Source: Gillisia mitskevichiae (GTDB taxonomy: Bacteria > Bacteroidota > Bacteroidia > Flavobacteriales > Flavobacteriaceae). From it: DNA of 64,000 nucleotides. The position numbers and the translations under genes are program-made. A model generated the notes under the pieces. It was not told the DNA's origin. It was given only the letters and a program-made list of their open reading frames with translations, and ran no database searches. Below, piece by piece: positions 11,827 through 33,171 of the stretch. How positions within the stretch are numbered: the first letter of the stretch is position 1; the number at the start of each line of letters is the position of its first letter. The DNA lies in the NCBI RefSeq assembly GCF_003634585.1, contig NZ_RBLG01000001.1, positions 1-64,000 on the forward strand. The letters are read 5' to 3'.

Positions 11827-11981
11827 TATTTCCTGTTATTTAAGATAATTAGCGCTGCTATTACTCCCGGGATCCAACCAAGCAATGTTAGAATTAGCAC
11901 AATTAAAATTGAACCACATCCTTTGTCATATACTGCTAATGGGGGAAACAATACCGATAGAATCACTCTCCAAACACTCAT
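11826..11981 (-). CDS. YqaE/Pmp3 family small membrane protein
   Basis: A 51-residue protein that would be missed by length filters. It begins MSVWRVILSVLFPPLAVYDK and continues GCGSILIVLILTLLGWIPGV, the characteristic layout of the YqaE/Pmp3 (UPF0057) family: a short hydrophobic helix with PPLAV, a glycine-cysteine turn, a second helix with LLGWIPG, and a basic tail. It has two transmembrane segments. Family members are stress-related proteolipids of the plasma membrane; the exact role in bacteria is unclear. Its stop overlaps the lipB start (TAATG), and a good TATCTTTG promoter box lies about 29 bases upstream. Confidence 0.9.
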   Translation of the reverse strand: MSVWRVILSVLFPPLAVYDKGCGSILIVLILTLLGWIPGVIAALIILNNRK

Positions 11982-17371: not shown

Positions 17372-17857
17372 ATGAAAAATACAATAATCATTATCTGCTT
17401 TTTAATGTCTGTAACTGCATTTTCTCAGCAAAGGGAACATAGAGAAAAAATGTCCCATCACTCTGAGATGACTTCAGAAGAAATGGCAACGTTAAAGTCT
17501 AAAAAAATGGCACTTCAATTAGATCTGAACAAATCTCAGCAAGAACAAGTGAAACAATTATTTGTTGCGAATATGAATGAAAGAAAAGCGATGATGGAGA
17601 ACAAAAAAGAGGCTGGTACAAAAGCTATGGATTCTACTAAAGCAGATCGTTTTAAAATGATGAATTCTAAATTAGACCAACAAATTGCAATGCAGGATAA
17701 AATGAAAAAGATCCTTGATGCAGAGCAATTTAATGAATGGAAGTCTTCTTCAAGAAAAGAAATGTCTAAAAGAAGACGCCATCAAGCTGATACAAAGAAA
17801 AAAATGCACAGAGCTTCTGCCAAAACCCAAATGAGAAAAGAGCTTCACAAGAATTAG
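17372..17857 (+). CDS. Spy/CpxP-like periplasmic protein
   Basis: A 161-residue exported protein with a signal peptide (to about residue 18, TAFSQ) and an all-helical mature part rich in Met, Lys and Gln. The segment [20 protein letters not shown] resembles the LTxxQ motif region of Spy/CpxP-like proteins. It is a probable paralog of the preceding gene but lacks the long Met-Lys-His tail and ends in a basic stretch. Its stop codon overlaps that of the convergent copA gene by four bases (17854-17857). No consensus promoter was found in the gap before it. Envelope metal or protein-folding stress is a reasonable but unproven role. Confidence 0.75.
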
Positions 17858-20577
17858 ATCTTGGCAGACTTCAATCTTAATGCATTTGCTATTACAGAAA
17901 CTGAACTAAAACTCATTGCTAAAGCAGCGATCATAGGAGATAACAATAAGCCAAATATAGGATATAGCACTCCTGCAGCTATTGGAACTCCAATGGTGTT
18001 ATAGATGAGGGCAAAGAACAAATTCTGTTTAATATTTCTCATTACCTTATCACTAAGATTTTTAGCCTTAACAACCCCGTGTAGATCACCTTTTACCAAG
18101 GTGATCTTTGCGCTTTCTATAGCCACATCTGTTCCAGTTCCCATTGCAATTCCCACGTTAGATTGAGCCAATGCCGGAGCATCGTTGATACCATCTCCTG
18201 CCATGGCAACTAATTTCCCTTCAGCCTGCAGACGTTTTACTTCATTCAATTTATCTTCGGGCAACATTCCTGCTTTGAAACCAGATAAATGAAGTTGATC
18301 TGCTACAGATTTTGCAGTTTTTTCATTATCACCTGTAAGCATAACAACTTCAATCCCATCATCCATTAATTCCTTAATTGCTTGGGCACTTGTTTTCTTT
18401 ATAGGATCTGTAATGGTAATATAACCAACAATTTTATTGCTCACAGCAACATAAGAAACTGTTTTGCCTTGCTCTTGCTCACTTTCAACCTGACTTTTAA
18501 ATTCTGAAGTGATCTCTGCATTTTCAGCATCCATCAATTTTTCATTTCCTATCGCTACTCGTTTTCCTTCTATTTCCCCAGTAACTCCTTTTCCTGTAAC
18601 CGAATTGAAATTTGAGGTTTCCGCTAAAGTCACATGTTTCTCTTTAGCGTATTTCACTGTGGCTTGAGCAAGTGGATGTTCACTCATTGCATTTACAGAA
18701 CTTATATAGTGCAACACCTCATCTTCAGAATAAGTAGAAGTTAAGGCTACAACTTTTTCCACAGAGGGTTTCCCTTCTGTGATCGTTCCTGTTTTATCAA
18801 TTATAAGCACATCAATTTTGATCATTTGCTCCAAAGCCTGTGCATTTTTAATAAGCACCCCATTTTGGGCTCCTTTTCCAACTCCTACCATTACAGACAT
18901 TGGCGTAGCTAATCCTAAAGCACAAGGACAAGCGATTATCAATACTGCAATTGCATTTATCATTGCATAGGCATAAGCAGGTTCAGGCCCATATATTGCC
19001 CAAACAACAAAGGTTATCACAGAGATTAGTACTACAATAGGCACAAAATAGCCAGAGATCTTATCGGCTAATTTTTGAATTGGAGCTTGAGAACGGCTAG
19101 CCTCATTTACCATTTTAATAATCTGTGCTAATAAGGTTTCATTACCAACTTTTTCTGCTTTCATTGTAAAACTCTGGTTGCCATTTATGGTTCCAGAACT
19201 CACTTTATCGCCTTCCTCTTTATCTACTGGTATTGGTTCTCCAGTGATCATAGATTCATCCAGACTACTTTGGCCTTTTTTAATAATACCATCTACCGGA
19301 ATTTTATCTCCCGGTTTTACCCTTAGTAAATCTCCAACTACAATTTTATCGGTTGGAATTTCCTCTTCTAATCCATCAATAATTCTGAAAGCCTTATTAG
19401 GAGCTAACTTTAAAAGCTCTTTAATGGCACTATTGGTCTTGCTATGCGCTCTTGCTTCTAATAACTGCCCAAGCAGCACTAAAGTTAAAATAACAGTTGC
19501 AGCTTCAAAATACACATGAACTGTCCCCATTTCAGTCTTAAATTGATCTGGAAAAAGGTCTGGAAATAACAAGCCTACTACACTAAAAACCCAAGCGACT
19601 CCTGCTCCAATTCCAATTAAAGTGAACATGTTAAGATTCCAGGTAATTATAGATCTGTAAGCGCGTTCAAAAAACATCCAGGTTGCATAAAAGACTACAG
19701 GAATGGAAAGGCCTAATTGGATCCAGTTCCAAAACTTCATATCTAACAAATCGTAAAGTGGATTTCCAGGGATCATTTCAGACATCGCAATCAGAAATAT
19801 TGGGAGTGTAAATAAGACTGCGATCTTGAATTTTTTAAGCAGATTTAAATAGGTCTTATTTTCTGCGGAAACATCTGATTTCATTGGCACCAAATCCATC
19901 CCACAAATAGGACAATCTCCAGGCTCATCTTTAATAACTTCCGGATGCATCGGGCAGGTATAATTTGTAGCAGATGCTTTTAAACTCATTTCTTCCACGA
20001 GATCCATCCCACATACGGGACAATCACCTGGTTTAGTATAAGTTTTATCTCCCTCACAATGCATAGGGCAATAAAAAGTTCCAGTTCCTTCTTTTCCTTT
20101 ATCGGTTTCTGCTACAGATTCCTCATTTTTTCCTGAAGGCGCTTCACCATGTTTATAGATCTGATAGCTTCCTCCATCTTCTTTTAGAGCTTTTTGAAAC
20201 TCACTCAATTTAATATGAGAATCCATTTCTATTACTGCTTCCGCTTTTTCCAGATTCACCTGGGCATTGGTAACACCTTTTACTTCTTTTAAAGTGTTTT
20301 CTACATGAGTTCTACAACCATTACAGGTCATCCCTGTTACATCGTATGTATGCTTCATGCTTTTACCGGTTTCATATATCTCATAATTCCCGCCTCCGCT
20401 CTTCAACGCTTCTTGAAAAGTTTCCAACGAAATATGATTCTGCATTTCTATTTCCGCTTCGGCTTTTTCCAGATTCACCTGGGCATTGGTAACACCTTTT
20501 ACTTCTTTTAAAGTGTTTTCTACATGAGTTCTACAACCATTACAGGTCATTCCGGAAATTGTATAGGTATGTTTCAT
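17854..20577 (-). CDS. copA: Copper-exporting P1B-type ATPase with two HMA and two CPMHP-type domains
   Basis: A 907-residue P-type ATPase that pumps Cu(I) out of the cytoplasm. Domains in order: HMA1 (1-73, GMTCNGC with Cys12 and Cys15), HMA2 (74-146, Cys85 and Cys88), a heavy-metal-binding domain CPMH...CPVCGM (about 169-193), a second one CPMHPE...CPICGM (about 208-226), then eight predicted membrane helices with the transport motif IACPCALGL, the phosphorylation motif DKTGT and the hinge GDGINDAP. The two HMA domains share an 89-base perfectly identical DNA stretch, a sign of recent duplication or gene conversion. A perfect 26-base palindrome sits just upstream of the ATG. The gene follows the copper-storage gene and converges on a Spy-like gene. 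Confidence 0.96.
20243..20331 (-). repeat. 89-base perfect direct repeat, copy in HMA2 of copA
   Basis: Identical base for base to 20462-20550, offset by 219 bases, which is exactly 73 codons. It encodes the [18 protein letters not shown] region of the second HMA domain. Confidence 0.95.
20462..20550 (-). repeat. 89-base perfect direct repeat, copy in HMA1 of copA
   Basis: Partner of 20243-20331. The flanking parts of the two HMA domains differ at synonymous and non-synonymous sites, while this core is identical. Confidence 0.95.
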
Positions 20578-20635: not shown

Positions 20636-20956
20636 TTATGCTAAATGCGCCTCGCAAACAGCTGCACAATTTCTACAGGCTTTAGCACAATCTTGGCAAT
20701 GTGCGTGATCGTGTTTTTCGCACTCTTCTGCACAGGCATTACAAACCTTTATACAATATCTAATAAGATCATCTACATCTTTATAGCCAGTTGCAAGTAA
20801 TTGATTTAATGTACTGCATACTTCTGCACAAACTTTGTCTGTTCGGATGCAAGTACGCATCATCTTCACATTTTCCTCATCTAAACAGGCATCTGCGCAA
20901 TAATTGCAGTGGTTTATACAATTACCTAAAGCGTGTACCATTTTTTCATTTCTCAT
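20636..20956 (-). CDS. Four-helix-bundle copper-storage protein (Csp-like, 16 Cys)
   Basis: A 106-residue protein with sixteen cysteines (13, 17, 20, 24, 36, 43, 47, 68, 72, 75, 79, 87, 90, 94, 97, 101) mostly spaced 3-4 residues apart so that they line the inside of a four-helix bundle. This is the layout of the DUF326/Csp family, which stores many Cu(I) ions per monomer as thiolate clusters. No signal peptide is present, so it is probably cytosolic (Csp3-like). A HDHAH segment (82-86) may add ligands. It lies upstream of copA on the same strand, with a hairpin between, and has a TAACTTTG promoter box about 26 bases before its start. Confidence 0.92.
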   Translation of the reverse strand: MRNEKMVHALGNCINHCNYCADACLDEENVKMMRTCIRTDKVCAEVCSTLNQLLATGYKDVDDLIRYCIKVCNACAEECEKHDHAHCQDCAKACRNCAAVCEAHLA

Positions 20957-20981: not shown

Positions 20982-20989
20982 CAAAGTTA
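20982..20989 (-). promoter_or_regulatory. -7 box for the Csp-like gene
   Basis: Minus-strand TAACTTTG matches TAnnTTTG and lies about 26 bases upstream of the start at 20956. The -33 region has no consensus, which would suit an activator-dependent promoter. Confidence 0.5.
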
Positions 20990-21049
20990 CTTAATAGATA
21001 TATTAAATACTTTTAAAATTATGGTAAGGATTTATGAAAATATGGGAAT

Positions 21050-21616
21050 TTAAAAGGCATCTAAAGTGTTTCTACCTTGCTGGGATCTTTTGTATTGAGA
21101 AGGAGTTATTCCTGTACTATTTTTAAATTGAGTAGAAAGATAAGCTGCGCTGCCAAAACCTAAATTATGTGCGATCTCAGAAATACTTAGCTCATCGTAT
21201 TCCAGCAATTCTTTAATTCGCTCTACTTTAAGTTCATTTTGATATTTCTGAATACTTTTCCCCTCAGTCTTAGAAAATATAGAGCTTAGGTGGCTATAAT
21301 CAAAATGTAGATTTTCTGTTAAGATCACAGATAAATTCTGATGAGTATCAGAATCTTTTTGAAAGATTTCGTTTAAAATGATCGCTTTAATTTGCTTAAC
21401 AATACGTTCATTTTTTTCTGATAGTATTTCGAAACCAACTTTCTTAAATTCCTTCTGAAGTTCTTCCATTTGATGGAGATCGATAGAATTTGGAAGTTCA
21501 ATAGTTCCCAAGGATATATTTAGAAATTCAATATTATTACGTTGTAGAATCTCCCGCACCGAGAGAATACAACGATCGCAAACCATATTTTTTATATGAA
21601 GTTCCTTATTAGCCAA
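21050..21616 (-). CDS. HMA-like/AraC fusion regulator, copy 1
   Basis: A 188-residue one-component regulator. Residues 1 to about 68 have the beta-alpha-beta-beta-alpha-beta pattern of a heavy-metal-associated domain, with KNMVCDRC giving a CxxC pair (Cys13, Cys16) where HMA domains bind metal. A helical linker follows, then a C-terminal AraC-type DNA-binding domain with two helix-turn-helix units (about 107-120 and 144-166, SISEIAHNLGFGSAAYL). A plausible reading is direct sensing of cytoplasmic Cu(I) or another soft metal and control of the island. It lies directly upstream of the Csp and copA genes. A paralog with the same layout is at 24260-24829. Metal, targets and sign of regulation are unknown. 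Confidence 0.85.
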   Translation of the reverse strand: MANKELHIKNMVCDRCILSVREILQRNNIEFLNISLGTIELPNSIDLHQMEELQKEFKKVGFEILSEKNERIVKQIKAIILNEIFQKDSDTHQNLSVILTENLHFDYSHLSSIFSKTEGKSIQKYQNELKVERIKELLEYDELSISEIAHNLGFGSAAYLSTQFKNSTGITPSQYKRSQQGRNTLDAF

Positions 21617-21632
21617 ATGATATAAATATTGA

Positions 21633-21695
21633 AAATTAAAGCCTATCTACTACATCTAAAAGGTTAAAATAAGATGAAGAGACAGGCTTTAATTT
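21633..21695 (-). terminator. Long inverted repeat between the DUF3347 gene and the regulator
   Basis: Arms AAATTAAAGCCT (21633-21644) and AGGCTTTAATTT (21684-21695), extendable to 17 bases with one mismatch, plus an inner CATCT/AGATG pairing. It lies after the DUF3347 stop and just before the regulator start, and could be a terminator, an attenuator or an operator. Confidence 0.45.
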
Positions 21696-21709
21696 TACTA
21701 GACTTTTAT

Positions 21710-22291
21710 TTAATTTATTACTTCCTCTACTCTACCACATTTAAGCATTTTATCACCAAAATACGGGTTTCTTATTTCTGAAGAAGTAGAATACCAGTAA
21801 TCCCCTTTTCCTTCGAAAGCCATAGGACAGTATTGCTTATAGATCTCTCCAGAAGATAAAGCACCTGTTAAAACAGTTTCCATCTCTTTTGTTATCTTAG
21901 AGAAAGCTTCCCTTTGCTTATTGATATCTGTTGCTTCTACTAATTGATTAGTGGCATCCAATAAAGTTTGCTCAGCCTTAGCTTCTTTTAAACTTTCCAA
22001 TAACAATTTAGCATGCTCCTGAGCCTCTGTATTCTCTGATGCTACTAATGCCGATTTAATTCCGATATAATGCTCGAAAGTTGTTTGAGTAATAGTTTCC
22101 TTGAACTGCACATTTATAACATCTTCTACATCCATTTTATCTACAGAACCTGTTTGTTCTTCAGCATTCATTTCTTCATCCATTACAGTATGGCTTTCAT
22201 CTTTCTTATCCTTGTTTTCTCCACATGAATAAAATCCAAAACTCGCTACTAAAGCAGCAATCATTAATCCGTTTCTAAGTTGTTTTTTCAT
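21710..22291 (-). CDS. DUF3347 lipoprotein
   Basis: A 193-residue lipoprotein (lipobox FYSCG, Cys23) with an acidic, Met-containing linker (about 30-55) and a C-terminal DUF3347 domain. The domain ends in the typical block QYCPMAFEGKGDYWYSTSSE followed by IRNPYFGDKMLKCG, whose Cys, Met and His/Cys residues suggest copper binding. The same domain forms the tail of the CusB adaptor in this island, and a decayed third copy is at 23021-23140. It is probably a periplasmic copper chaperone or buffer for the Cus system; this is inference from domain sharing. A TAATTTTG promoter box lies 114 bases upstream. Confidence 0.88.
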   Translation of the reverse strand: MKKQLRNGLMIAALVASFGFYSCGENKDKKDESHTVMDEEMNAEEQTGSVDKMDVEDVINVQFKETITQTTFEHYIGIKSALVASENTEAQEHAKLLLESLKEAKAEQTLLDATNQLVEATDINKQREAFSKITKEMETVLTGALSSGEIYKQYCPMAFEGKGDYWYSTSSEIRNPYFGDKMLKCGRVEEVIN

Positions 22292-22405
22292 TATTTCTTT
22301 TTTCTAATTATTCTTATTAAAAAATTTTCTAATACTAGGAGACTAGGTCTACCAAATGGTAAATCCAACTTGTACACTTATTAATCCCAGTAAAGAAAAT
22401 ACACG

Positions 22406-22413
22406 CAAAATTA
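22406..22413 (-). promoter_or_regulatory. -7 box for the DUF3347 gene
   Basis: Minus-strand TAATTTTG matches TAnnTTTG. It lies 114 bases upstream of the start at 22291, leaving a long leader. No consensus -33 box. Confidence 0.35.
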
Positions 22414-22435
22414 GTTATTAAAACCGTCTATATTT

Positions 22436-22555
22436 TCATAATCTATAGGTTGCGTCATCCATAGAAAGTCGAACATCTCCAATCTCTATGCCGAATACTC
22501 TCAAATCTTCCGTTTTCTTTGGAACAATGGCTCTTATTCGGTCTGTATTGTTGCA
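22436..22555 (-). other. Protein-like ORF fragment, possibly a remnant
   Basis: Frame-shifted relative to the end of the haem-binding gene, a 40-codon open stretch reads CNNTDRIRAIVPKKTEDLRV then FGIEIGDVRLSMDDATYRL and a stop. The composition is protein-like, but there is no start codon or complete domain. It may be the C-terminal remnant of a lost gene or chance. The rest of the 242-base gap (22292-22533) holds only the promoter box above. Confidence 0.25.
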
Positions 22556-22986
22556 ACCCAATCCATAAGCACTTTCTTATCATCATCTGTTAACTTAGCC
22601 TCTTGATGTAACCAAGTATATTCATCTAAAGGCATCTTGTCATTTTTAACCTCTTTTATAAGTTCCTCTAATTTATGATCTTTTCTCTTCTGAGAATATT
22701 CCCCAAATTCACTGAAATTGAGTTCACTTTTACCCTCATCTACATGATCTGCTAAGTACCAATTCACAGGTTGAACCCTATTATACCATGGATACTCTGT
22801 ATTGTTGCTATGGCAATCATAACAAGAAGCGCGTAATATAGCTTCCACTTCTTTAGGCGGATTGTAGCTTGCGATAAAATCTGACGCTGGAATTGTTTCA
22901 GACTGATTATAATTTTTAGGGAAAAATTGAATTACGATTAGTGCTATTAAAGCAACAATTGCAAGAATTTTTAAAATTTTCATCAA
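22534..22986 (-). CDS. Haem-binding domain protein
   Basis: A 150-residue protein with an N-terminal membrane helix (about residues 5-22) and a periplasmic domain containing one CxxCH motif (CYDCH, Cys55-Cys58-His59), followed by NNTEYPWYNRVQPVNWYL, the typical sequence of the Haem_bd domain (PF14376 type). A distal Met (MPLDEYTWLH) could be the sixth haem ligand. It probably carries one covalently attached c-type haem at the periplasmic face. Its place among copper genes suggests an electron-transfer or redox role in metal handling, which is inference. It lies on the minus strand between two DUF-type genes with remnant-containing gaps on both sides. Confidence 0.88.
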   Translation of the reverse strand: MMKILKILAIVALIALIVIQFFPKNYNQSETIPASDFIASYNPPKEVEAILRASCYDCHSNNTEYPWYNRVQPVNWYLADHVDEGKSELNFSEFGEYSQKRKDHKLEELIKEVKNDKMPLDEYTWLHQEAKLTDDDKKVLMDWVATIQTE

Positions 22987-23020
22987 GTTAAAATTTAGTG
23001 TTATCAGACTTTATTAAATC

Positions 23021-23140
23021 TTAATTAATCAGTTTTTTAATACTCATACAATTAAGAATTTTTCCGCCACCAAAGTACGGATTTTTTGTGGCTTTAGTTT
23101 CACTAATTCAAAATGCTCCCTATCCAAAAAGGCAGTTATT
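23021..23140 (-). pseudogene. Decayed DUF3347 domain remnant
   Basis: In one minus-strand frame the gap between two genes translates to C-L-F-G-stop-G-A-F-stop-ISETKATKNPYFGGGKILNC and then MSIKKLIN-stop. It aligns with the end of the intact DUF3347 domains nearby: GAFWLSESSDVKNPYYGSAM in CusB and IRNPYFGDKMLKCG in the lipoprotein. The Trp after GAF is replaced by TGA, a second stop lies upstream and the CPMA block is shortened. It is clearly a broken copy and not an expressed gene. Confidence 0.8.
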
Positions 23141-23169
23141 GTATTACAAAAATTCTTAATAAACCTATT

Positions 23170-23556
23170 TTAAATATTATTGATAACCTTTTTTAATTTT
23201 TCAGTAATTTCTTCTGCGATCTCTTTTAATTCTGAATTATCGATGGCTTGCATAGAAGCTAATGGATTCACTGCGGCAATCTCTACAGAATTGTCTTTAA
23301 GTTGCTGCACAATTACATTACATGGTAACATAGTTCCTACTTTATCTTCTGCCGTTAAAGCTTTATGTGCATAAGGCGCATTGCAGGCTCCCAAAATTCT
23401 GTAATTCTTGAAGTCTATATCCAGCTTCTTTTTAAAAGTTGCCTTAAGATCGATATCCGTTAATACTCCGAAGCCTTCCTTTTCTAATTCTTTGGAAACT
23501 TTATCTATAACGTTTTCAAAATTCCCCTCTACTGTTTTATTAAAATAATAATTCAT
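23170..23556 (-). CDS. DUF302 family protein
   Basis: A 128-residue protein without signal peptide or membrane segment. The sequence FENVIDKVSKELEKEGFGVLTDIDLKATF and the later NYRILGACNAPYAHKAL and VGTMLPCNVIVQQL blocks are those of DUF302 domains, a small alpha/beta fold often found near metal and redox genes. Two cysteines (in GACNAP and LPCNV) are conserved positions in many members. The biochemical role is not established. It lies on the minus strand among the copper-island genes, with remnants of lost genes on both sides. Confidence 0.88.
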   Translation of the reverse strand: MNYYFNKTVEGNFENVIDKVSKELEKEGFGVLTDIDLKATFKKKLDIDFKNYRILGACNAPYAHKALTAEDKVGTMLPCNVIVQQLKDNSVEIAAVNPLASMQAIDNSELKEIAEEITEKLKKVINNI

Positions 23557-23586
23557 ATTGAAGTTTTTTAATTGTTTGTACTTTGA

Positions 23587-23631
23587 TTAAAATCTCATTG
23601 AAAGTCCGACACTGATTCCAAATCTGTTATC
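23587..23631 (-). pseudogene. Remnant of an outer-membrane barrel C-terminus
   Basis: Fifteen codons in the gap between the DUF305 and DUF302 genes read DNRFGISVGLSMRF-stop, the typical last strand of an outer-membrane beta-barrel ending in Phe. An in-frame TAG immediately precedes it, so no intact gene exists. It is short, so chance cannot be excluded, but it fits other decay in this region. Confidence 0.4.
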
Positions 23632-23690
23632 CTAACTCCTTATTAAAGATAAGTTTTTAGAAAGAAAATATTCCATCCCTGATCTTCTCC

Positions 23691-24185
23691 TTATTTACCC
23701 TCATTCTCCAATCTTTCGATCATTCTTTTCATCTCTAGTATCTCCTTTTTCTGTGCTTTAATTATGTCATCAGCTAATTTCTTCACCTCAGGATCTTTTA
23801 TATCTGCTCTTTCACTGGTAAGAATTGCAATAGAATGATGAGGGATCATCGCTTTCATCCACAACACATCTCCAATTATTGGACTTTGAGCCCTTACTAA
23901 CCCTAATGCACCTAAAAATAGCATCAAACTTCCTATATAAATAGCGATATTCTTCTTCTTATTTTTATACATGTTCAACATAAGAGATAGCATGATCACT
24001 GCCATTGCAGAGATCCCTAAACAGCTCATATAAAATCGAGTTAAACTAAAATAGACATGGTCAATTTGATAGGTGTTTAAATACATGGTGATATACATCG
24101 CCACAAAGGATAAACCAAGCATTAAGAAAAACTTGGAATAATTATTTCCTTGCATTTTATGTTGACTTTTGGCTTCTGGATTCAT
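23691..24185 (-). CDS. DUF305 membrane protein
   Basis: A 164-residue protein with three predicted membrane helices (about 18-36, 51-72 and 79-97) followed by a soluble tail carrying the DUF305 signature MKAMIPHHSIAILTSERA (His116-His117) and a helical region KKLADDIIKAQKKEILEMKR. DUF305 proteins are ferritin-like helical domains often linked to copper resistance, and the double His with nearby Met could bind metal. The N-terminal segment contains several His and Met residues (QHKMQ). It follows the second HMA-AraC regulator with 74 bases between. Confidence 0.88.
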   Translation of the reverse strand: MNPEAKSQHKMQGNNYSKFFLMLGLSFVAMYITMYLNTYQIDHVYFSLTRFYMSCLGISAMAVIMLSLMLNMYKNKKKNIAIYIGSLMLFLGALGLVRAQSPIIGDVLWMKAMIPHHSIAILTSERADIKDPEVKKLADDIIKAQKKEILEMKRMIERLENEGK

Positions 24186-24259
24186 ATTGATTAGTTTTTG
24201 GTTGTCGAACTAAAGTATTGGATTAAAGCTTATTATATTGTTAAAATATTGGATTGTAT

Positions 24260-24829
24260 TTATACTATTTGGTCTAAAGAATTCCTAAAATTTTCATTCA
24301 AACCCTTGTATTCCGTCAAACTCATTCCTGTTTCATTCTTAAACTGGCGGGATAAATAATTCATATTAGCATAATCTAACAACTGACTTATTTCTGTGAA
24401 ATTAAATTCTTTAGACTGTATTAGTTCTTTCACCTTTTCGATCTTCAGTTTTATAAAATATTTCTCTATAGTAACTTTTTCTGTAGCCGAAAAAATCTTG
24501 CTTATTTTAGAATAATCAGAATTCAGTTTAGCAGAAAGTAGATCCGATAGATTTCCTTCAAGCTTAAGTGGGAATTTATTTAACAGTTTGATCAATTCAA
24601 TTTTAACTTCTTCTGTAATTATATTTTCTGGGCTGCTAATTAGAAGGAAACCATTTTCAGTTAAAACCTTATTCAATTTTAATTTTGTTAACTCCTCATT
24701 GTCCGTATCTATAATAACTTTACCTAAAATGACTTCCAAAACAACTACTTCCTCAGCGAGTAGCTCATTCCTGATCACTTTAATGCATCGGTCACAAACC
24801 ATGTTCTTTATATAATATTCCTTGATCAT
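24260..24829 (-). CDS. HMA-like/AraC fusion regulator, copy 2
   Basis: A 189-residue paralog of the regulator at 21050-21616, with the same length and order: an HMA-like N-terminal domain (1 to about 66) with KNMVCDRC (Cys12, Cys15), a helical linker, and a C-terminal AraC domain with helix-turn-helix units around 105-118 and 144-166 (FTEISQLLDYANMNYLSRQF). Sequence identity is concentrated in the CxxC motif and the AraC part; the remainder has diverged, suggesting different metals or target sites. It lies just after the cus operon terminator and upstream of the DUF305 gene. No consensus promoter was recognised before it. Confidence 0.85.
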   Translation of the reverse strand: MIKEYYIKNMVCDRCIKVIRNELLAEEVVVLEVILGKVIIDTDNEELTKLKLNKVLTENGFLLISSPENIITEEVKIELIKLLNKFPLKLEGNLSDLLSAKLNSDYSKISKIFSATEKVTIEKYFIKLKIEKVKELIQSKEFNFTEISQLLDYANMNYLSRQFKNETGMSLTEYKGLNENFRNSLDQIV

Positions 24830-24908: not shown

Positions 24909-25038
24909 AAAAGTTTAATACTTGATTTAGAGCTAAGAATATTAAGGTGAATGAAACTATTCCATAAATCAATCTGGCACTCCATTTTTTAAATTCCGAT
25001 TTTGTTTTCTTATCTTCTACTTGACAACACTTTTTCAT
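24907..25038 (-). CDS. 43-residue Cys-Cys membrane peptide coupled to cusB
   Basis: A short gene that is easy to overlook. It reads MKKCCQVEDKKTKSEFKKWS, then ARLIYGIVSFTLIFLALNQV and LNF. The start overlaps the cusB stop as ATGA, which implies translational coupling, and the operon terminator overlaps its own stop. The layout is a charged cytoplasmic head with a Cys-Cys pair at residues 4-5 and one membrane helix (about 22-40). It could deliver or sense metal for the Cus pump, or be an assembly factor, but no function is known to me. The clean coupling and terminator argue that it is real. Confidence 0.75.
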   Translation of the reverse strand: MKKCCQVEDKKTKSEFKKWSARLIYGIVSFTLIFLALNQVLNF

Positions 25039-26768
25039 TTTAAAGTAGATTTCACTTCCCCGCAGGTTAGCATTGCACTTCCATAGTAAGGATTTTTAAC
25101 ATCGGAAGATTCACTAAGCCAAAAAGCTCCTTTGTTACTATTAGCCATTGGACAATGCAATACAAACAATTCCTTACTAGTAAGCTTAAAACTATTTACC
25201 ATTCCAATAGTGGTTTCAGAAAGCTCATCGAAATTATTTCTCATCTCTTGTAAATCATTCGATGAAATCATCGATTGGGTAGATTTTATCAATTCCTTCT
25301 GAAAAGTTCCCCAGATCTTCGCCGACTCTTCTTTAAGCTCGGATGTTTTAAGCATTTTAACACGTTTGTCCAATATTATCACTAGCTTTTTAGCTGAAGA
25401 AAAATCATCGGCCACAAGTGCATCTTTAAATTCTAAGTAGTCGGAAAGTATGGGCTCAAACTGCTGCTTTTCCTTTTCTGAAAGAGTTACAGATATAAAC
25501 TTGTTAGTTTTCTGAGTTTCTTTCTCTCTAGGACTCATCATACTAGGTCTTCCAGAAAGTTGAACAGCAGCATCTACCGTAAAAGTTCCATTGGTAACTA
25601 TTTCTTCTCCAGAATTCAATCCTTCCTCTACCACATAAGAATCTCCCAATCCTGGACCTAGAACGATCTCTCTTAACTTAAAACTAGATCTTCCATCAAC
25701 AGTTTCTTTTATATAAACTACAGAGCGTTTCCCCGTCCATAGCACTGCCGATTTTGGAATTACCAGCTCCTGAGTGTCATTATCGGTGTTATCATTTTTT
25801 ATAATTCCAGATACGAACATTTCTGGCTTTAATCTTCCATCTTTATTATTCACCTCAACTCTTGCTGAAGCTACTCTGGTTTGAGAATTAATAATTGGGT
25901 CTATAAAACTAATAGTTCCTTCAAAGGTTTCTCCTGGCAAAGAATTTACGGTGTAACTAATTTTGCTGCCTTCTTTTACCCAGGCCAGTTCACTTTCATA
26001 AAGATCGAAAAGTACCCAAACCTTAGAAAGGTCGGAAATCTCATAAATTGGCATGCCTCGCTCCACATAATCTCCCAATTCCACCATTTTTTCAGTCACA
26101 ATTCCATTTACATCTGCTCCAATAGGAAATCGTTGAATTGCTTTCCCATTAGCTAAAATTCGATCTATTTGGGTATTCCCTATTTTCCAATTCTTTAGTT
26201 TCTCCTTTGCCGCTTCAAATAATTCTGGCTGACTTTCTTTTATACTTGCTGCCTGTAACAATTCTTCTTGAGCAGTAACCAACTCTGGAGAATACACCAT
26301 TGCCAAAGTTTGGCCTCGGCTTACTTTCTCGCCTGTAAAATTGATAGATAAAGATTCTACTCTTCCAGGGATATGGGTAGATTGAGAATACGCATTTCGT
26401 TCATCTACTTGGATCTTTCCATTTAACCTTAATTCTTTGGAAGCATTTCCCATGCCCACTATTTCTGAAGTAATATTTGCCAACTTCATGGCATTTTCAC
26501 TCATTTGATAGCTATCTGGATCTGCTCCTAAATCTTCTTTTTTCAGCGGAATTAGTTCCATCCCACAAATAGGACAGGCTCCGGGTTCAGATTGTCTAAT
26601 TTGAGGATGCATAGAACAAGTCCAGATCTCCTGATGATCTAATGATTCCAAGCTATGATTTTCTGAAATTTCGTTTGTTTTATCTTCGGTTGGTTTAATT
26701 AACCAACCCAAACCTGCTCCTATTATTAGCGTCGCCAGCACGATTAATATTATCTTTTTATTTTCCAT
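25035..26768 (-). CDS. cusB: CusB-like RND efflux adaptor with CPMHP-type and DUF3347 domains
   Basis: A 577-residue periplasmic adaptor. After a membrane anchor (about 5-24) comes a heavy-metal-binding domain WTCSMHPQIRQSEPGACPIC-GM (49-70), then the barrel-sandwich/lipoyl, hairpin and beta-barrel domains of membrane-fusion proteins (about 110-420), and a C-terminal DUF3347 domain (about 435-577, with HCPMANSNKGAFWLSESS). It connects the inner-membrane pump CusA with the TolC-type channel and probably takes Cu(I) from periplasmic carriers. The extra metal modules at both ends are more than the E. coli protein has. The stop overlaps the start of the 43-residue peptide. A 176-base repeat-bearing gap separates it from cusC. 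Confidence 0.93.
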   Translation of the reverse strand: MENKKIILIVLATLIIGAGLGWLIKPTEDKTNEISENHSLESLDHQEIWTCSMHPQIRQSEPGACPICGMELIPLKKEDLGADPDSYQMSENAMKLANITSEIVGMGNASKELRLNGKIQVDERNAYSQSTHIPGRVESLSINFTGEKVSRGQTLAMVYSPELVTAQEELLQAASIKESQPELFEAAKEKLKNWKIGNTQIDRILANGKAIQRFPIGADVNGIVTEKMVELGDYVERGMPIYEISDLSKVWVLFDLYESELAWVKEGSKISYTVNSLPGETFEGTISFIDPIINSQTRVASARVEVNNKDGRLKPEMFVSGIIKNDNTDNDTQELVIPKSAVLWTGKRSVVYIKETVDGRSSFKLREIVLGPGLGDSYVVEEGLNSGEEIVTNGTFTVDAAVQLSGRPSMMSPREKETQKTNKFISVTLSEKEKQQFEPILSDYLEFKDALVADDFSSAKKLVIILDKRVKMLKTSELKEESAKIWGTFQKELIKSTQSMISSNDLQEMRNNFDELSETTIGMVNSFKLTSKELFVLHCPMANSNKGAFWLSESSDVKNPYYGSAMLTCGEVKSTLK

Positions 26769-26944: not shown

Positions 26945-28195
26945 TTATTTATAATTTTTTATCATCAAATAATCTAGCTTTGCTTTTGCAATAAACCCGT
27001 CTTTTAAAGCTTCTATTTTCTGGGTTTGCAACAATAAAATATCCTGATTCATTCTTAGCACCTCTTCAAAATTCCCGGTAGCATTACTAAAAGCCGAAAT
27101 ATATAGTTTGTTAGCTTGCGTAGAACTTTGTAGTTGCTTGTTATAAAGTTCTACAAGTTTTTCAGACTTCCTAAATTCATACAGGGTCATTTCCAATGTA
27201 GAGTGCAACTCATTTTTAACTTGCTGCATTTCATTTTCTACACTAACCGACATGAATTTTGCTTCTTCTTTTGCTGCTTTATACTTCTTTCTGAATATTG
27301 GTAAACTCACCGAAACCATAGGCATAAAAGCATCCATCCCATTTCCTTCAGGATTGGCGTCTGCTCTTTTAGAAATTATAGAATAATCTACTCCTAATCC
27401 AATATTTGGCAAGCCTTCCTTTTCTGCTACGATCTCCTGAGCCAGATAAGATTCCTTCTGCTTTTCTAAACCCATTAACATAGGATGCTTATTAAGCACT
27501 TCTTCATAATTATCGAACTCAGGATTATTCGGAATAATTAAAGTGTCTTTTATAATTACTGCTGAAGTTGCTTCCCTATTCAACATTAAATTGAACTTTA
27601 CTCGCAATGGTCTAAGCTGATCTTTCAGTAATTCTATCTCTGTAAAGGCTCCGTCTTTGTCTATATCTACCTTCACCACATTTACCATGGCTCCAGCTCC
27701 ACTTTTAAATCGGCTTAGAGCCAATTCTCTGTAAGATCCAAGAATGCTTAAATTCTTCTCCTTGATCTCGATCACTTCAGAGAGTGCATATAACTCGGCA
27801 TAGATCGATTTCACTTCAAATATCAACTGATTCTGAGAATTTAAATAGGATTGGAATTTAGCTTCAGCCTTTAAATTAGCTGCACTTTCACGCGCTTTTA
27901 AAGTTCCAAACCAAGGAAACATCTGCATTAAATTGAATCGAGCTTCTTGGGCACCCACTCTGGTTTCCACCATTCTTCCCAATCCGCTCATGGTTAAAGT
28001 GGGGTCTGGCAAACTGGAAACTTGAGGAGATTTCCTCATGGCTGCTTCAAACTGCGCATACTCAGATTGTAACTTTGGATTATTTTTAATCGCGATCTCT
28101 AAATACTCTTCCAGAGTTTCTTGAGCTTTCAGTTCTTGAATTCCCAATAGCATGAATGCCGACAGGAAGAGGGTATATATTTTTATATTTTTCAT
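26945..28195 (-). CDS. cusC: TolC-family outer-membrane efflux channel (CusC-like)
   Basis: A 416-residue outer-membrane channel protein. It has a signal peptide (to about residue 24, ELKAQ) and the two-repeat helical architecture of the OEP family: long amphipathic helices (such as LEEYLEIAIKNNPKLQSEYA and the C-terminal MNQDILLLQTQKIEALKDGF) with short strand segments. It is the exit duct of the Cus system. The start lies three bases after the cusA stop, so the genes are tightly linked; cusB follows after a 176-base gap. No lipobox is present, unlike E. coli CusC. Confidence 0.92.
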   Translation of the reverse strand: MKNIKIYTLFLSAFMLLGIQELKAQETLEEYLEIAIKNNPKLQSEYAQFEAAMRKSPQVSSLPDPTLTMSGLGRMVETRVGAQEARFNLMQMFPWFGTLKARESAANLKAEAKFQSYLNSQNQLIFEVKSIYAELYALSEVIEIKEKNLSILGSYRELALSRFKSGAGAMVNVVKVDIDKDGAFTEIELLKDQLRPLRVKFNLMLNREATSAVIIKDTLIIPNNPEFDNYEEVLNKHPMLMGLEKQKESYLAQEIVAEKEGLPNIGLGVDYSIISKRADANPEGNGMDAFMPMVSVSLPIFRKKYKAAKEEAKFMSVSVENEMQQVKNELHSTLEMTLYEFRKSEKLVELYNKQLQSSTQANKLYISAFSNATGNFEEVLRMNQDILLLQTQKIEALKDGFIAKAKLDYLMIKNYK

Positions 28196-28198
28196 CTT

Positions 28199-31100
28199 CT
28201 AAATTTCTTTAGCTTCAATTAATACTTCTCCTGGCGGATCCTTTTTAACTACAGATTCTCTCCAATAGGCTTGTAAAACAGGCACCACAAAAATGGTCAT
28301 GATCTGTATGATCATTCCTCCAACAATTGGGATCGCCATTGGCACCATAATATCGGATCCTTTTCCTGTAGAGGTTAGCACTGGAAATAATGCAATTATT
28401 GTTACCGCTGTGGTCATCATGGCTGGACGTACTCTTTTTAGCCCGGCTTCCATTACTGCATCCCTTACTTCTGTTACCGTTTTGGGCTTTCTTCTTTCAA
28501 AAACTTGATGGATGTACGTTCCCATAAGTACTCCATCATCTGTAGCGATACCGAATAATGCAATAAATCCTACCCATACGGCAACACTTAAGTTGATATT
28601 ATGCATTTGGAAGAGGTCTCTCATATTCATTCCGGAAACCGAGAAGTCCATGAACCAGCCTTGCCCATACAACCAGATCATTATAAAACCTCCCGCAAAA
28701 GCTACAAATACCCCTGAAAAATGAATTGCCGATGCAATGATAGTCTTGAACTGAAAATACAGAAGCAAAAAGATAATCACCAAACTAATTGGGATCACAA
28801 TCGCTAAACGTTTTACAGCTCTAACCTGATTTTCATAATTCCCAGAAAACTTATAGCTGATGCCGGCCGGTACTACTAAATCTCCAGCGTCAATTTTATC
28901 CTGAATGAATTTCTTAGCATCGTCTACCACATTAACCTCAGCGTTTCCATCTCGTTTATCAAATAGTACATATCCAACTAAAAAGGTATCCTCGCTTTTA
29001 ATCATCTGTGGACCTCTGGTATATTTAAGTTCCGCCAATTCGCCCAAGGGAATTTGAGCCCCATTTTTTGTAGGAACTAAGATCTTTTTAATGCTCTCCG
29101 GATCGTCCCTTAATTCTCTAGGATATCTAACTCTTACAGGATACCGCTCTCTACCTTCTACTGTAGTTGTTATCGCCATTCCACCAATTGAGGTTTCTAA
29201 TGTCTGCTGAACATCTTCAATACTCAACCCATATCTCGCAATGGCATTTCGGTCTATATCTATTTCCAAATATGGTTTCCCAACAGTTCTATCTGCAAAA
29301 ACAGCTTCAGATTTAACAGATGGAACCTGTTTTAAAAGTTCCTCTAATTCTATCCCGAATTCCTGTATTGTTTGAAGATCTGGCCCATATACTTTTATTC
29401 CCATTGGAGCCCGCATTCCTGTTTGTAACATCACCAAACGAGTCTCGATAGGTTGAAGTTTTGGTGCTGAGGTAACTCCCGGAATATTAGTTCGGCTTAC
29501 GATCTCATTCCAAATATCATCTGGGTTCTTAATATGAGATCTCCAATTTCTAAAATAGTCTCCATCTTCGTCTTCAATTAAATTCTCTTTGGAAACCCTT
29601 CTTTCTAAGGCTTGTTCATTAGTCAACGAATCGCCAGATTTAAGAATATATCTTCTATCGTTGTCTACTTTAAAGGATACAGGATTTCCATCTTCATTTA
29701 AAATATATTCAGATTTATAATTAATGATATTCTCATACATTGAAATAGGCGCAGGATCTAAAGCGCTTTCTATCCTTCCTAATTTTCCTACCGCAACCTC
29801 TACTTCCGGGATATCTGTAATTGCGATATCCAATTGTTGTAAGGTCTTTTTAGATGCTTCTATCCCTGCATGAGGCATTGAAGTTGGCATGAGGAGAAAA
29901 CTTCCTTCGTTTAGCGAAGGCATAAATTCTTTTCCAACACCAGGGAAGGTATGTGCCATCCCACTCCATCCAGAAGTAGAGCGAATATTCCATCCTATTT
30001 TATTGAATCCGTCGGCTACAGGACCAAAGATCTTTGGAAAACCTAACCAAATTAATACTCCAAAGAATATGGTTATTAATGGAAGCAATAAAAATTTCCC
30101 TTTATTCACTAAACACCAACTTAAGATCGACTTGTAAAATTTCACGATCCCCATAAGGATCAATAACGTGAATGCTAATAGTACTATTACAAATATGTAA
30201 TTAGAAAACAGGGAACTTTGGTGACCAAGCGGGATCCATTCTTCTGTAAGAAAAAATAAGGTTACACCCAGAATAATAATTATTGTAATAATAGTGGAAT
30301 GTTTACCTAAGAATTCTGGATTCTTGTGTTCCAATAATTTTATTAGGCCTATTAAAACCAGTGCTAAAGGCAGCCAAAAACTAAAATAAATGGCTAAAAA
30401 TAAACCACTCACAATAAGTACTATATTCCAAATTCTTGTTGCTCGTTCTTTCTGAACCCGCATATTAAAAGCGTAATAAGAAAGCATGGGCAAGATCAAC
30501 ATTCCAATAAAAAAGGCTGCGCCTAGGGCAAAGGTTTTAGTGAATGCCAATGGTCTGAAGAGTTTTCCTTCCGCATGCTCCATAAAAAAGACCGGCAAGA
30601 AACTTACTATTGTTGTTGCCAATGCTGTAGTTACGGCAGGACCTACTTCCAGTGTGGCATTATAGATAAGCCCTAAGAGCTTGTCATCTTTTGCGCCAGC
30701 ATTTTTTTTCATTTCCAGATGCCGGATAATATTTTCTACAAATACGATCCCGACATCTACCATGACCCCAATAGCGATAGCAATTCCAGACAAGGCCACC
30801 ACGTTAGCATCCACACCAAAATATCGCATTGCTATAAAGGTGACCAGCACCGCCACCGGCAATAAGCTGGAAATAAGAATTGAGGCTCTTAAATTGAGCA
30901 CCAATACTATAATTACGATAATGCTTATTAAAATTTCATGAGAAAGAGCCTTTTCTAGGGTTCCTACAGTTTCGTTTATAAGTTGTGTTCTATCGTAAAA
31001 GGGAACTATGGTAAGTTTACTTATAGTTCCATCTTTAAGGGTTTTTTGAGGTAATCCTGCAGAGATTTCCTTGATCTTTTCCTTGGTGTTTTTAATAACC

Positions 31101-32044
31101 TGAAGCGGGTTAGAACCATATCTAGCCACAACTACACCTCCAACAACTTCTGCTCCTCCTTTATCAAGGATTCCACGACGTTCTGCCGGGCCTAAATGCA
31201 CAACGCCAAGATCCTTAATTAGAACAGGCTTATTATCTACTGCTGTAACTACTGAATTCTCAATATCTTCAACAGATTTAATATATCCTAGTCCGCGAAC
31301 CAGATATTCCACCTTGTTTATCTCCAAAGTTTTGGCGCCGATATCCCTATTGGAATTTTTTACGGCCATCATAACCTGGTCTATTCCAATGTTATATGCT
31401 TTTAAGGCATCTGGGTTTACATCTATTTGGTACTCCTGTACAAAACCACCTACCGAGGCTACTTCAGAAACACCAGAAGTCCCGCTTAATCCAAGCTTCA
31501 CATAATAATCCTGAATAGATCTTAATTCATTAAGATCCCATCCTCCGATAACATTCCCCTCTGGGTCGCGACCTTCTAATGTATACCAGTACACTTGCCC
31601 TAATCCAGTAGCATCCGGACCTAGCGTTGGTTGAACTCCATCCGGCAGAAGCTCTGATGGTAAGGAATTTAATTTCTCAAGTACTCTGGTTCTAGACCAG
31701 TAAAATTCTACATCCTCTTCAAAAATGACATACACTATAGAAAAACCAAACATGGAAGTGCTCCTTATAGACTTTACTCCGGAAATTCCAAGTAAAGTTG
31801 TAGTCATAGGGTAAGTGATCTGATCTTCTATATCTTGTGGAGAGCGACCGGGCCAATTGGTAAAAACTATTTGCTGATTTTCGCCAATATCCGGGATAGC
31901 ATCTACCGGGACAGAATCTTTAGGTAAAAAACCTGTATCCCAATCGAAAGGTGCAGTTACCAATCCCCAACCAACTAAAAACAGCATCAAAAGTACTGTC
32001 ACCAATCTATTATAGAGGAAATATTTAATGAATTTGTTAAACAT
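28199..32044 (-). CDS. cusA: CusA/CzcA-family heavy-metal RND pump, enlarged
   Basis: A 1281-residue RND transporter. Visible signatures: NWPGRSPQDIEDQITYPMTT near the N-terminus, the membrane blocks VDANVVALSGIAIAIGVMVD and GIATDDGVLMGTYIHQVFER with the proton-relay acids, and periplasmic porter domains with RLVMLQTGMRAPMGIKVYGP, where the Met residues agree with the copper-type CusA subgroup. It is about 230 residues longer than E. coli CusA; the extra length is mainly a hydrophobic insert with several predicted membrane helices around residues 535-670, plus a polar loop around 760-830. It pumps Cu(I)/Ag(I) across the envelope with CusB and CusC. Metal specificity is inferred from subgroup and neighbours. 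Confidence 0.94.
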   Translation of the reverse strand: MFNKFIKYFLYNRLVTVLLMLFLVGWGLVTAPFDWDTGFLPKDSVPVDAIPDIGENQQIVFTNWPGRSPQDIEDQITYPMTTTLLGISGVKSIRSTSMFGFSIVYVIFEEDVEFYWSRTRVLEKLNSLPSELLPDGVQPTLGPDATGLGQVYWYTLEGRDPEGNVIGGWDLNELRSIQDYYVKLGLSGTSGVSEVASVGGFVQEYQIDVNPDALKAYNIGIDQVMMAVKNSNRDIGAKTLEINKVEYLVRGLGYIKSVEDIENSVVTAVDNKPVLIKDLGVVHLGPAERRGILDKGGAEVVGGVVVARYGSNPLQVIKNTKEKIKEISAGLPQKTLKDGTISKLTIVPFYDRTQLINETVGTLEKALSHEILISIIVIIVLVLNLRASILISSLLPVAVLVTFIAMRYFGVDANVVALSGIAIAIGVMVDVGIVFVENIIRHLEMKKNAGAKDDKLLGLIYNATLEVGPAVTTALATTIVSFLPVFFMEHAEGKLFRPLAFTKTFALGAAFFIGMLILPMLSYYAFNMRVQKERATRIWNIVLIVSGLFLAIYFSFWLPLALVLIGLIKLLEHKNPEFLGKHSTIITIIIILGVTLFFLTEEWIPLGHQSSLFSNYIFVIVLLAFTLLILMGIVKFYKSILSWCLVNKGKFLLLPLITIFFGVLIWLGFPKIFGPVADGFNKIGWNIRSTSGWSGMAHTFPGVGKEFMPSLNEGSFLLMPTSMPHAGIEASKKTLQQLDIAITDIPEVEVAVGKLGRIESALDPAPISMYENIINYKSEYILNEDGNPVSFKVDNDRRYILKSGDSLTNEQALERRVSKENLIEDEDGDYFRNWRSHIKNPDDIWNEIVSRTNIPGVTSAPKLQPIETRLVMLQTGMRAPMGIKVYGPDLQTIQEFGIELEELLKQVPSVKSEAVFADRTVGKPYLEIDIDRNAIARYGLSIEDVQQTLETSIGGMAITTTVEGRERYPVRVRYPRELRDDPESIKKILVPTKNGAQIPLGELAELKYTRGPQMIKSEDTFLVGYVLFDKRDGNAEVNVVDDAKKFIQDKIDAGDLVVPAGISYKFSGNYENQVRAVKRLAIVIPISLVIIFLLLYFQFKTIIASAIHFSGVFVAFAGGFIMIWLYGQGWFMDFSVSGMNMRDLFQMHNINLSVAVWVGFIALFGIATDDGVLMGTYIHQVFERRKPKTVTEVRDAVMEAGLKRVRPAMMTTAVTIIALFPVLTSTGKGSDIMVPMAIPIVGGMIIQIMTIFVVPVLQAYWRESVVKKDPPGEVLIEAKEI

Positions 32045-32185: not shown

Positions 32186-32602
32186 TCAGATAAGGAATAC
32201 CTGATCTAACAGATGTATATCTGTGACCAGTATGGGTGGAGAATAATCTTTAAACGGAATTACAAGCTCTGGAGTTCCTTCAAAAAGTTCAATAATAGAA
32301 AAGGTGAAGGCAGCTACAAAAACTTGCTGATCGAAATTTAAATTGTCGAAGGATATTTTTAATTCATCCTGTCCTTCTATCGCCAGTTGAGTATTGGTAC
32401 AACAGGAATCAGAAAGCATATCTGAAACCATCATGGAATCCATATTATGAGAGGACATCCCACAATCTTTAGCTTTAGAAAAAACAGCTTGATCTACTAA
32501 AAAATCACCACAAAAATGTTTGTCTATAGTAAACGAAAAAGTGGACACAAGCACTAAAAGTGCTAGAATCAAAGAAGATGATTTTTGAATTCCATTTTTC
32601 AT
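32186..32602 (-). CDS. HYC_CC_PP family protein
   Basis: Using the ATG at 32602 the product has 138 residues: a signal peptide (about 8-25), KHFCGD (His29, Cys31), CCTN (Cys67-Cys68) and a C-terminal YSPP. This matches the family named for its H(Y/F)C, CC and PP motifs, found in Bacteroidota near copper genes. An upstream in-frame TTG at 32611 lies inside the -7 promoter box and is not a credible start. The cysteines, His and Met cluster (SSHNMDSMMVSDM) suggest periplasmic metal binding. It heads the gene row leading into cusA, with a hairpin between. Confidence 0.82.
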   Translation of the reverse strand: MKNGIQKSSSLILALLVLVSTFSFTIDKHFCGDFLVDQAVFSKAKDCGMSSHNMDSMMVSDMLSDSCCTNTQLAIEGQDELKISFDNLNFDQQVFVAAFTFSIIELFEGTPELVIPFKDYSPPILVTDIHLLDQVFLI

Positions 32603-32608
32603 TACAAG

Positions 32609-32616
32609 CAAATATA
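32609..32616 (-). promoter_or_regulatory. -7 box giving a near-leaderless HYC_CC_PP mRNA
   Basis: Minus-strand TATATTTG, an exact match to TAnnTTTG, ends 6 bases before the ATG at 32602. Transcription would start at or just before the start codon. No consensus -33 box was seen. Confidence 0.55.
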
Positions 32617-32724
32617 AACAATAATTGTTAAAATAGATATAACCGATTCTACATCAGGATTTATCACTTATTTATTCAGCAAACATAAAACAAACTATCT
32701 TAATTCAATTTCAGTATTATAGGA

Positions 32725-33171
32725 TTAACTTTTAAATTCATGGGCACTCTTACGCCTATAGTAATAAAATGCGGGCATCAGAATAAGCACCAAAATTGGG
32801 TGGATTAAAAAACGTCGAACATAGAAAAGTGCCAAAAAGTTTTGGCTTTCGATTTCAAAAATCAAGAAAACAAAAATAGTGAAGCAGATCACAAAGAAGA
32901 TCGAAAATAAATACACAGAAAATTCTAATATGTTTTTATCGAAAAAGGCAACGTACAGAAGCCCTAATGAAATGACTGAATTAAGTAAATATCTTAATAG
33001 TACATTAAAAAACAACTTTCCTGTCGCAAAATATGGAAAAGCTTCATGTAGATAGTCTGCCTCATAAAACTTTAATAAAGGATCATAAAATAGGTCTTTC
33101 TCAAAATAACGTATCATTGCTAGTAGTATAACTAGAAAAGAGATCATAATAATTTTATATCGCTTTTTCAT
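32725..33171 (-). CDS. Exosortase F-associated membrane protein
   Basis: A 148-residue protein with four predicted membrane helices and conserved charged loops (IRYFEKDLFYDPLLKFYEAD near the N-terminus, FYVRRFLIHP near the C-terminus). It matches the small membrane protein that accompanies XrtF in Flavobacteriia. Its start overlaps the end of xrtF by 17 bases, so the pair is translated together. The role is presumably to stabilise or partner the exosortase, but this has not been shown to my knowledge. Confidence 0.88.
   Translation of the reverse strand: MKKRYKIIMISFLVILLAMIRYFEKDLFYDPLLKFYEADYLHEAFPYFATGKLFFNVLLRYLLNSVISLGLLYVAFFDKNILEFSVYLFSIFFVICFTIFVFLIFEIESQNFLALFYVRRFLIHPILVLILMPAFYYYRRKSAHEFKS

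Follow-up and report, generated by a model that had tools for sequence, protein, structure and literature searches.

The first 64,000 nucleotides of contig NZ_RBLG01000001.1 of Gillisia mitskevichiae (assembly GCF_003634585.1), referred to here as the window, carry a copper island in which two open reading frames (ORFs), R1 and R2, each join an HMA-like domain to an AraC-type helix-turn-helix (HTH). An initial annotation of this DNA had proposed that the two are paralogous one-component regulators. Both ORFs are present on the minus strand, and the motif KNMVCDRC on which that proposal leaned is found in each. Their parts are as follows.

21050-21616, minus strand: R1, putative HMA-AraC one-component regulator, 188 aa, putative TTG start
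21419-21616, minus strand: HMA/ferredoxin-like domain of R1, residues 1-66 (sequence, model, profile)
21569-21580, minus strand: predicted metal site CDRC of R1, residues 13-16 (sequence)
21083-21334, minus strand: AraC-type DNA-binding domain of R1, about residues 95-178 (PF12833, model)
24260-24829, minus strand: R2, putative HMA-AraC one-component regulator, 189 aa
24635-24829, minus strand: HMA/ferredoxin-like domain of R2, residues 1-65 (sequence, model, profile)
24785-24796, minus strand: predicted metal site CDRC of R2 (sequence)
24305-24550, minus strand: AraC-type DNA-binding domain of R2, about residues 94-175 (PF12833, model)

R1 and R2 are paralogues that align almost end to end, with 66 of 184 residues identical (36%, E 8e-34). 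The AraC-type HTH (PF12833) is significant in both (E 2.4e-17 and 1.7e-9) and is matched at E 0.5 or better by all 79 members of an alignment of relatives, which represents 77 of 80 named loci (the best 80 of 555 confirmed related loci; three lacking a clean ORF were excluded). No Pfam or NCBIfam family above its cut-off spans the whole of either protein, and Pfam scans and structural models of R1 and R2 revealed no input domain other than HMA beside the HTH. The paralogues had been described as differing outside the CxxC and the DNA-binding helix; such differences exist, but the HTH region differs as well (GSAAYLSTQFKN vs ANMNYLSRQFKN).

We read the N-terminal part of both proteins, from sequence profiles and models, as homologous to HMA domains and distant from them in sequence. 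AlphaFold2 predicts the ferredoxin-like fold expected of an HMA domain, a beta-alpha-beta-beta-alpha-beta arrangement, for residues 4-65 of R1 (mean predicted local distance difference test score, pLDDT, 85.8; predicted template modelling score, pTM, 0.63) and residues 2-64 of R2 (mean pLDDT 93.0, pTM 0.83), and profile comparison supports it. When the 79-member family profile was compared with PDB sequences, its first ~60 positions matched HMA domains and its last ~100 matched AraC domains, the former including ATP7B (E 1.6e-8), Bacillus subtilis CopA (E 7.2e-7), and CopZ (E 0.0021); these matches to solved HMA domains rule out a chance resemblance. Among the aligned relatives the Pfam HMA model (PF00403) reaches a best E of 5.3e-5, with 32 of 79 matching at E 0.5. 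Foldseek ranks AraC-type proteins highest for both models (best E 1.8e-4 for R1 and 1.2e-3 for R2, for which none reaches 0.001), its matches including the DNA-binding domains of MarA, AraC, and GadX, and it also pairs the models with the HMA domains of GolB (gold), ZiaA (zinc), and CadA.

Within the alignment V12, C13, R15, and C16 are invariant; CxRC occurs in 79 of 79 members, always with arginine between the cysteines, although the named loci were partly retrieved by a KNMVC pattern and conservation of that motif is overstated accordingly. In 66 of the 79 the CxRC pair provides the only two cysteines of the protein.

The family is widespread, with 185 of 395 drawn Bacteroidota genomes matching a 17-row profile at E 1e-15; some of these lie near the limit (e.g., 1.4e-16, 3.2e-16, 9.0e-16) and may be plain AraC proteins. 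The organism names attached to the 80 named loci were placed by us in Bacteroidota. Regulator genes were also found on plasmids (31 records with at least 80% coverage; the genera of the 25 records listed are presumably all Bacteroidota), where annotated copies are labelled AraC, response-regulator, or helix-turn-helix proteins, and a heavy-metal ATPase lies nearby in two of three annotated plasmid neighbourhoods, the third having a bilirubin oxidase.

Linkage of HMA-AraC genes to copper genes, which the initial annotation had named as a check in other genomes, holds across Bacteroidota. Fifty-eight named loci have flanks of 5 kb or more on both sides; in 49 of them a CopA-like P1B ATPase is encoded within 5 kb, and in 28 of the 58 it lies directly downstream (within 300 bp). 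The former count is 56 of 80 when loci with short flanks are included. Forty-six of the 49 linked ATPases bear CPC, YN, and MxxSS, which we take to be the copper-type P1B signature, the exceptions being L077 and L089 (CPC only) and L102 (CPH type). In a second set, 40 well-scoring genomes hand-picked from the profile matches to reduce the bias of the KNMVC pattern, 30 have their best regulator match no more than 5 kb from an above-cut-off TIGR01511 ATPase, against a chance expectation, from the density of 69 ATPases, of 0.005 per genome or ~0.2 in 40. Genes for Csp, multicopper oxidase, Cus proteins, and HMA chaperones also neighbour family members. No copper gene was picked up by the marker search in the 6.4 to 9 kb on either side of five loci (L051, L081, L095, L121, L122), so there may be solitary regulator copies that act elsewhere.

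Word counts upstream of the regulator genes at the 80 loci returned AT-rich words only, indicating that the promoter signal lies after rather than before the regulator, and the stretch between regulator and copA is similar across the phylum. A motif was trained on 32 loci in which the regulator ORF is intact and an ATPase gene follows it by no more than 300 bp. Its log-likelihood was 308.8 (width 28, 120 starts), whereas eight shuffled sets, given 40 starts each, reached 93-111, and its consensus in 32 columns over these 32 regulator-copA promoters is ATcTTAtAAATCatttcCAAAATtctaTAACA. The matrix correlates with itself at 0.67 at a shift of 21 and at no more than 0.22 at shifts of 1-20 and 22-24, the mark of a direct repeat with a 21-bp period, and it is non-palindromic (correlation -0.15). 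Inverted repeats between R1 and csp had been considered as an operator and were set aside on this ground. Thirty training promoters have sites of at least 10 bits, and in 27 of them the sequence TTTG starts exactly 24 nt past the site; if this TTTG is, as we assume, the -7 element of Bacteroidota promoters, the second half-site falls at about -33.

This operator-like element recurs outside the training set. Of 30 held-out loci, 18 reach 10 bits within 200 bp past the regulator (the window's own R1, at 10.0 bits, is among them, as is L149, whose core is common to a training locus) and none does so in the upstream control region. Over all named loci, a 10-bit site is present in 44 of 76 within 250 bp around or past the regulator end, training loci included, and in 0 of 80 within 250 bp ahead of the anchor regulator. 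A matrix trained without the six Bacteroidales-named loci finds a site above all 200 shuffles in five of them. Scanning both strands of the 80 loci (1,293,615 bp) gave 75 sites of at least 15 bits. Training promoters account for 31; of the other 44, 39 are followed by TTTG or TTTA at a distance of 23-25 nt, and a reversed-matrix control gave three sites, none so placed. Thirty-three of the 44 directly precede an ORF, and 31 of these ORFs match CopA, small HMA, HYC-type, or Csp proteins or a second regulator, the other two being in L063 and L064. In the latter (11873-11904), a 35.6-bit site stands ahead of a 129-aa ORF that resembles a membrane protein and has a small HMA protein encoded after it; this ORF is possibly an unrecognised copper gene.

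The genome holds four full-length HMA-AraC copies split over two copper islands, the second pair being located further along the contig, at 685.2 and 702.8 kb. In 80 kb of this second island the two top sites precede csp2 (703390, 24.9 bits) and copA2 (703910, 17.4 bits), the next best scoring 10.0 bits. A first pattern derived from these csp2 and copA2 promoters failed to match anywhere in the window, even with three mismatches allowed; the window's sites were found only with the many-genome matrix. These candidate sites and the genes they would serve are listed here.

17854-20577, minus strand: CopA-type Cu P1B ATPase, probable target (TIGR01511 591.8 bits; two HMA stretches)
20636-20956, minus strand: Csp-like four-helix copper-storage protein, probable target (DUF326; TIGR04401 44 bits, below the cut-off of 100)
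21009-21040, minus strand: predicted operator between R1 and csp-copA (9.5 bits over 32 columns, 11.7 over 31)
20982-20985, minus strand: presumed promoter TTTG for the R1/csp-copA site, 23 nt from it
32186-32611, minus strand: HYC_CC_PP family protein, first gene of the cus operon (NF047658 123.5 bits)
32707-32738, minus strand: candidate operator ahead of HYC_CC_PP and the cus operon (9.4 bits)
32680-32683, minus strand: TTTG for the cus-operon candidate site, 23 nt from it
24239-24252, minus strand: candidate half-site CCAATATTTTAACA between R2 and the DUF305 gene (by eye; TTTA 24 nt downstream)
23691-24185, minus strand: DUF305 membrane protein, probable target of R2 (its CopM-like domain scores under the family cut-off)

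When TTTG is required at 22-25 nt, the csp-copA and cus sites are the only two in the window, even at 3 bits, and 60 simulated windows gave a mean of 0.05 qualifying sites at 9 bits and never two. On visual inspection the csp-copA site can be made out in the same-genus loci L169, L173, and L174 and less clearly in others; conservation of the cus site within the genus is poor, and it is a candidate only. Ahead of the DUF305 gene, five of eight same-genus R2 loci retain CCAAAATTTTAACA or a near form with TTTA 24 nt on.

Gene order supports the earlier suggestion that R1 and R2 have separate targets. In same-genus stretches csp and/or copA follows 9 of 13 R1-type ORFs (in L172 after a further ORF), the exceptions being L167, L177, L178, and L179, and a DUF305 or multicopper-oxidase gene follows seven of eight R2-type ORFs (in L167 and L172 after a DUF3347 gene), the exception being L176. 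The parallel suggestion of separate metals finds no support, the CDRC sites being identical and the copper island shared.

Taken together, the domain profiles, structural models, gene linkage, and operator-like element make it probable that R1 and R2 belong to the AraC family as one-component activators that respond to Cu(I) in the cytosol, with an HMA domain as input. The N-terminal domain would take Cu(I), or Ag(I), on its sole two cysteines (MVCxRC), and metal would alter occupancy of the 21-bp-period direct repeat by the C-terminal AraC domain, probably acting as a dimer or pair. This repeat lies just upstream of the promoter TTTG (-7), and the altered occupancy would turn transcription on. 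R1 would serve csp-copA, with the cus operon as a possible second target, and R2 mainly the DUF305-led genes, while the regulator gene itself would usually be transcribed from a promoter lacking an operator-like site. Direct ligand exchange with chaperones or CopA, as proposed at the outset, would be compatible with these findings. A wider formulation, in which HMA-AraC proteins are the standard cytosolic copper sensor of Bacteroidota in place of CueR, CsoR, and CopY, the HMA domain docks chaperones or CopA so that the regulator would become a relay station, and paralogues split the regulon by half-site sequence and spacing, is put forward tentatively and is somewhat doubtful as a whole.

Several observations weigh against a copper-responsive activator of this kind. 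As to the input domain, R2 misses the PF00403 cut-off (11.8 bits vs 24.8, E 0.33), R1 has no match to that model in the Pfam search even at E 1, and the Foldseek E-values for CopZ are weak (0.16 for R1 and 0.030 for R2, lower-ranked, with a probability of 1.00 in both). Linkage is incomplete: 9 of the 58 full-flank named loci and 10 of the 40 hand-picked genomes (G309, G254, G071, G391, G327, G066, G149, G417, G329, and G079) have no Cu ATPase inside 5 kb. Operators are likewise missing from 12 of 30 held-out loci (no 10-bit site inside 200 bp past the regulator) and from the divergent promoter neighbouring R3 in the second island, and in L072, L092, and L109 a second regulator ORF follows an operator-like element, which suggests that in some cases one regulator copy may control another. 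Scores in the window are low: its two operator candidates reach 9.5 and 9.4 bits, are outscored by two TTTG-less sites elsewhere in it, and have TTTG at 23 nt rather than the phylum's 24; the 22-25 nt range and the score threshold were fixed after both were known. Finally, the R2 half-sites are 19 bp apart, not 21, and their element was found by eye and missed by the matrix.

Of the alternatives, a repressor or dual repressor/activator fares best and is still unlikely; its apo form would occupy the direct repeat and be released or flipped by Cu(I). The second half-site, lying at about the -33 element, could by its geometry block RNA polymerase. Against this, direct repeats of about 21 bp abutting -35 are the classic activator layout of AraC itself, and the absence of a 10-bit site ahead of all 80 anchor regulators argues the same way; with only the three second regulators noted above following a site, an autorepression loop is not usual. 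Among copper-responsive one-component regulators the repressors BxmR and ComR, named in the available excerpt of a survey (PMC10141476), give it precedents. It is quite improbable that the HMA domain is instead a switch for thiol redox or for another soft metal (Ag, Au, Hg, Zn/Cd) and not a copper sensor: a CxxC can form disulfides or bind such metals, the GolB, ZiaA, and CadA matches would suit it, and one linked ATPase (L102) is of the CPH type, but the other motifs of the linked ATPases (46 of 49 presumably copper-type) and the Csp, multicopper oxidase, Cus, and HMA chaperone neighbours speak for copper. Some response to Ag(I) alongside copper is nonetheless likely by analogy with CueR, for which Ag(I) co-sensing is reported (PMC10141476, same excerpt). 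Least credible is a tethered chaperone or buffer beside a regulator that senses something else through a part other than the CxxC, since HMA domains do usually traffic copper but no further input domain was found in R1 or R2 and the invariant N-terminal residues centre on VCxRC, a pattern biased by the KNMVC retrieval.

The usual copper sensors had been reported as unseen near R1 and R2, and this extends to the genome for CsoR, CueR, and CopS/CusS kinases; the genome search did not extend to CopY or copper response regulators. CsoR (PF02583) has no match genome-wide, including in R1 and R2. Two MerR-type proteins are encoded, one without any cysteine and the other resembling, in our judgement, B12-binding regulators, and R1 and R2 match no MerR model, bearing the AraC HTH instead. 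Ordinary two-component control of the islands was considered and is disfavoured as far as kinases go: none of 28 kinase matches genome-wide exceeds the CopS/CusS cut-off and none was recognised among island ORFs (for the second island, in the first 70 residues of each ORF).

Compared with known systems, R1 and R2 would resemble CueR in a presumed cytosolic, Cu(I)-responsive control of copA and differ from it in lacking the MerR domain and in metal site and operator, so that an HMA-AraC protein would act in CueR's role from outside CueR's family. CsoR, CopY, and other one-component copper repressors share the presumed job and the linkage to Cu ATPase genes; their folds are unrelated to HMA-AraC. 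With the AraC/XylS family (AraC, MarA, YesN-type) R1 and R2 share HTH_18 and may share an operator built as a direct repeat, here predicted with a 21-bp period ahead of the promoter, and they differ in an HMA-like input domain of about 65 residues, the usual N-terminal input of that family being a cupin or similar ligand pocket. They share with the HMA domains of CopZ, Atx1, and the N-terminal parts of CopA and ATP7B the beta-alpha-beta-beta-alpha-beta order and an MxCxxC in the first loop, and are unlike these in the fused DNA-binding domain and in the arginine of CxRC in every aligned member. The nearest copper-linked AraC protein met in the literature, YbtA, is likewise an activator in which cysteines are critical and whose response involves copper, but it responds to Cu(II)-yersiniabactin, has another cysteine-rich N-terminal domain, and controls siderophore genes (PMC8725597, as excerpted). 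A hidden Markov model survey of 76 marine bacteria, few of them Bacteroidota, found in the latter only two-component and extracytoplasmic function (ECF) sigma homologues of known copper regulators and no known one-component sensor, as far as its available excerpt goes (PMC10141476). No description of an HMA-AraC copper regulator was found in the open PMC literature, subscription journals and regulon databases being outside the scope of that search.

If the copper-activator reading is true, the family, matched in 185 of 395 drawn genomes, would fill the one-component sensor gap seen in that survey with a new architecture, a predicted operator, and a predicted regulon, and it might supply a copper-responsive promoter part for Bacteroidota. 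It would be unusual in that the fold of the sensor is that of the chaperones that could load it.

The genes of the window's island lie on the same strand in the order HYC_CC_PP, CusA, outer membrane efflux protein, CusB, R2, DUF305, DUF302, Haem_bd, DUF3347, R1, Csp, and CopA. Those not listed above, all assigned by domain search, are given below.

21710-22291, minus strand: DUF3347 lipoprotein-like protein
22534-22986, minus strand: Haem_bd domain protein
23170-23556, minus strand: DUF302 protein
25035-26768, minus strand: CusB-like adaptor
26945-28195, minus strand: outer membrane efflux protein
28199-32044, minus strand: CusA-like RND (resistance-nodulation-division) pump

DUF3347 appears twice in the island, as the separate protein at 21710-22291 and as the C-terminal domain of the CusB-like adaptor (25035-26768). 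The N-terminus of the Csp-like protein (20636-20956) carries no visible export signal, and for this reason the protein probably stores copper in the cytosol. Upstream of the cus operon two membrane ORFs (32725-33171 and 33155-33712) have no Pfam match at E 0.01; we take them to resemble an exosortase and its partner. The second island is flanked by two 404-aa ORFs (645312-646526 and 707400-708614; L044 and L047) that are near-identical over the first 70 residues compared. Both are, we assume, integrase-like, and because they bracket the second island its organisation suggests a mobile element.

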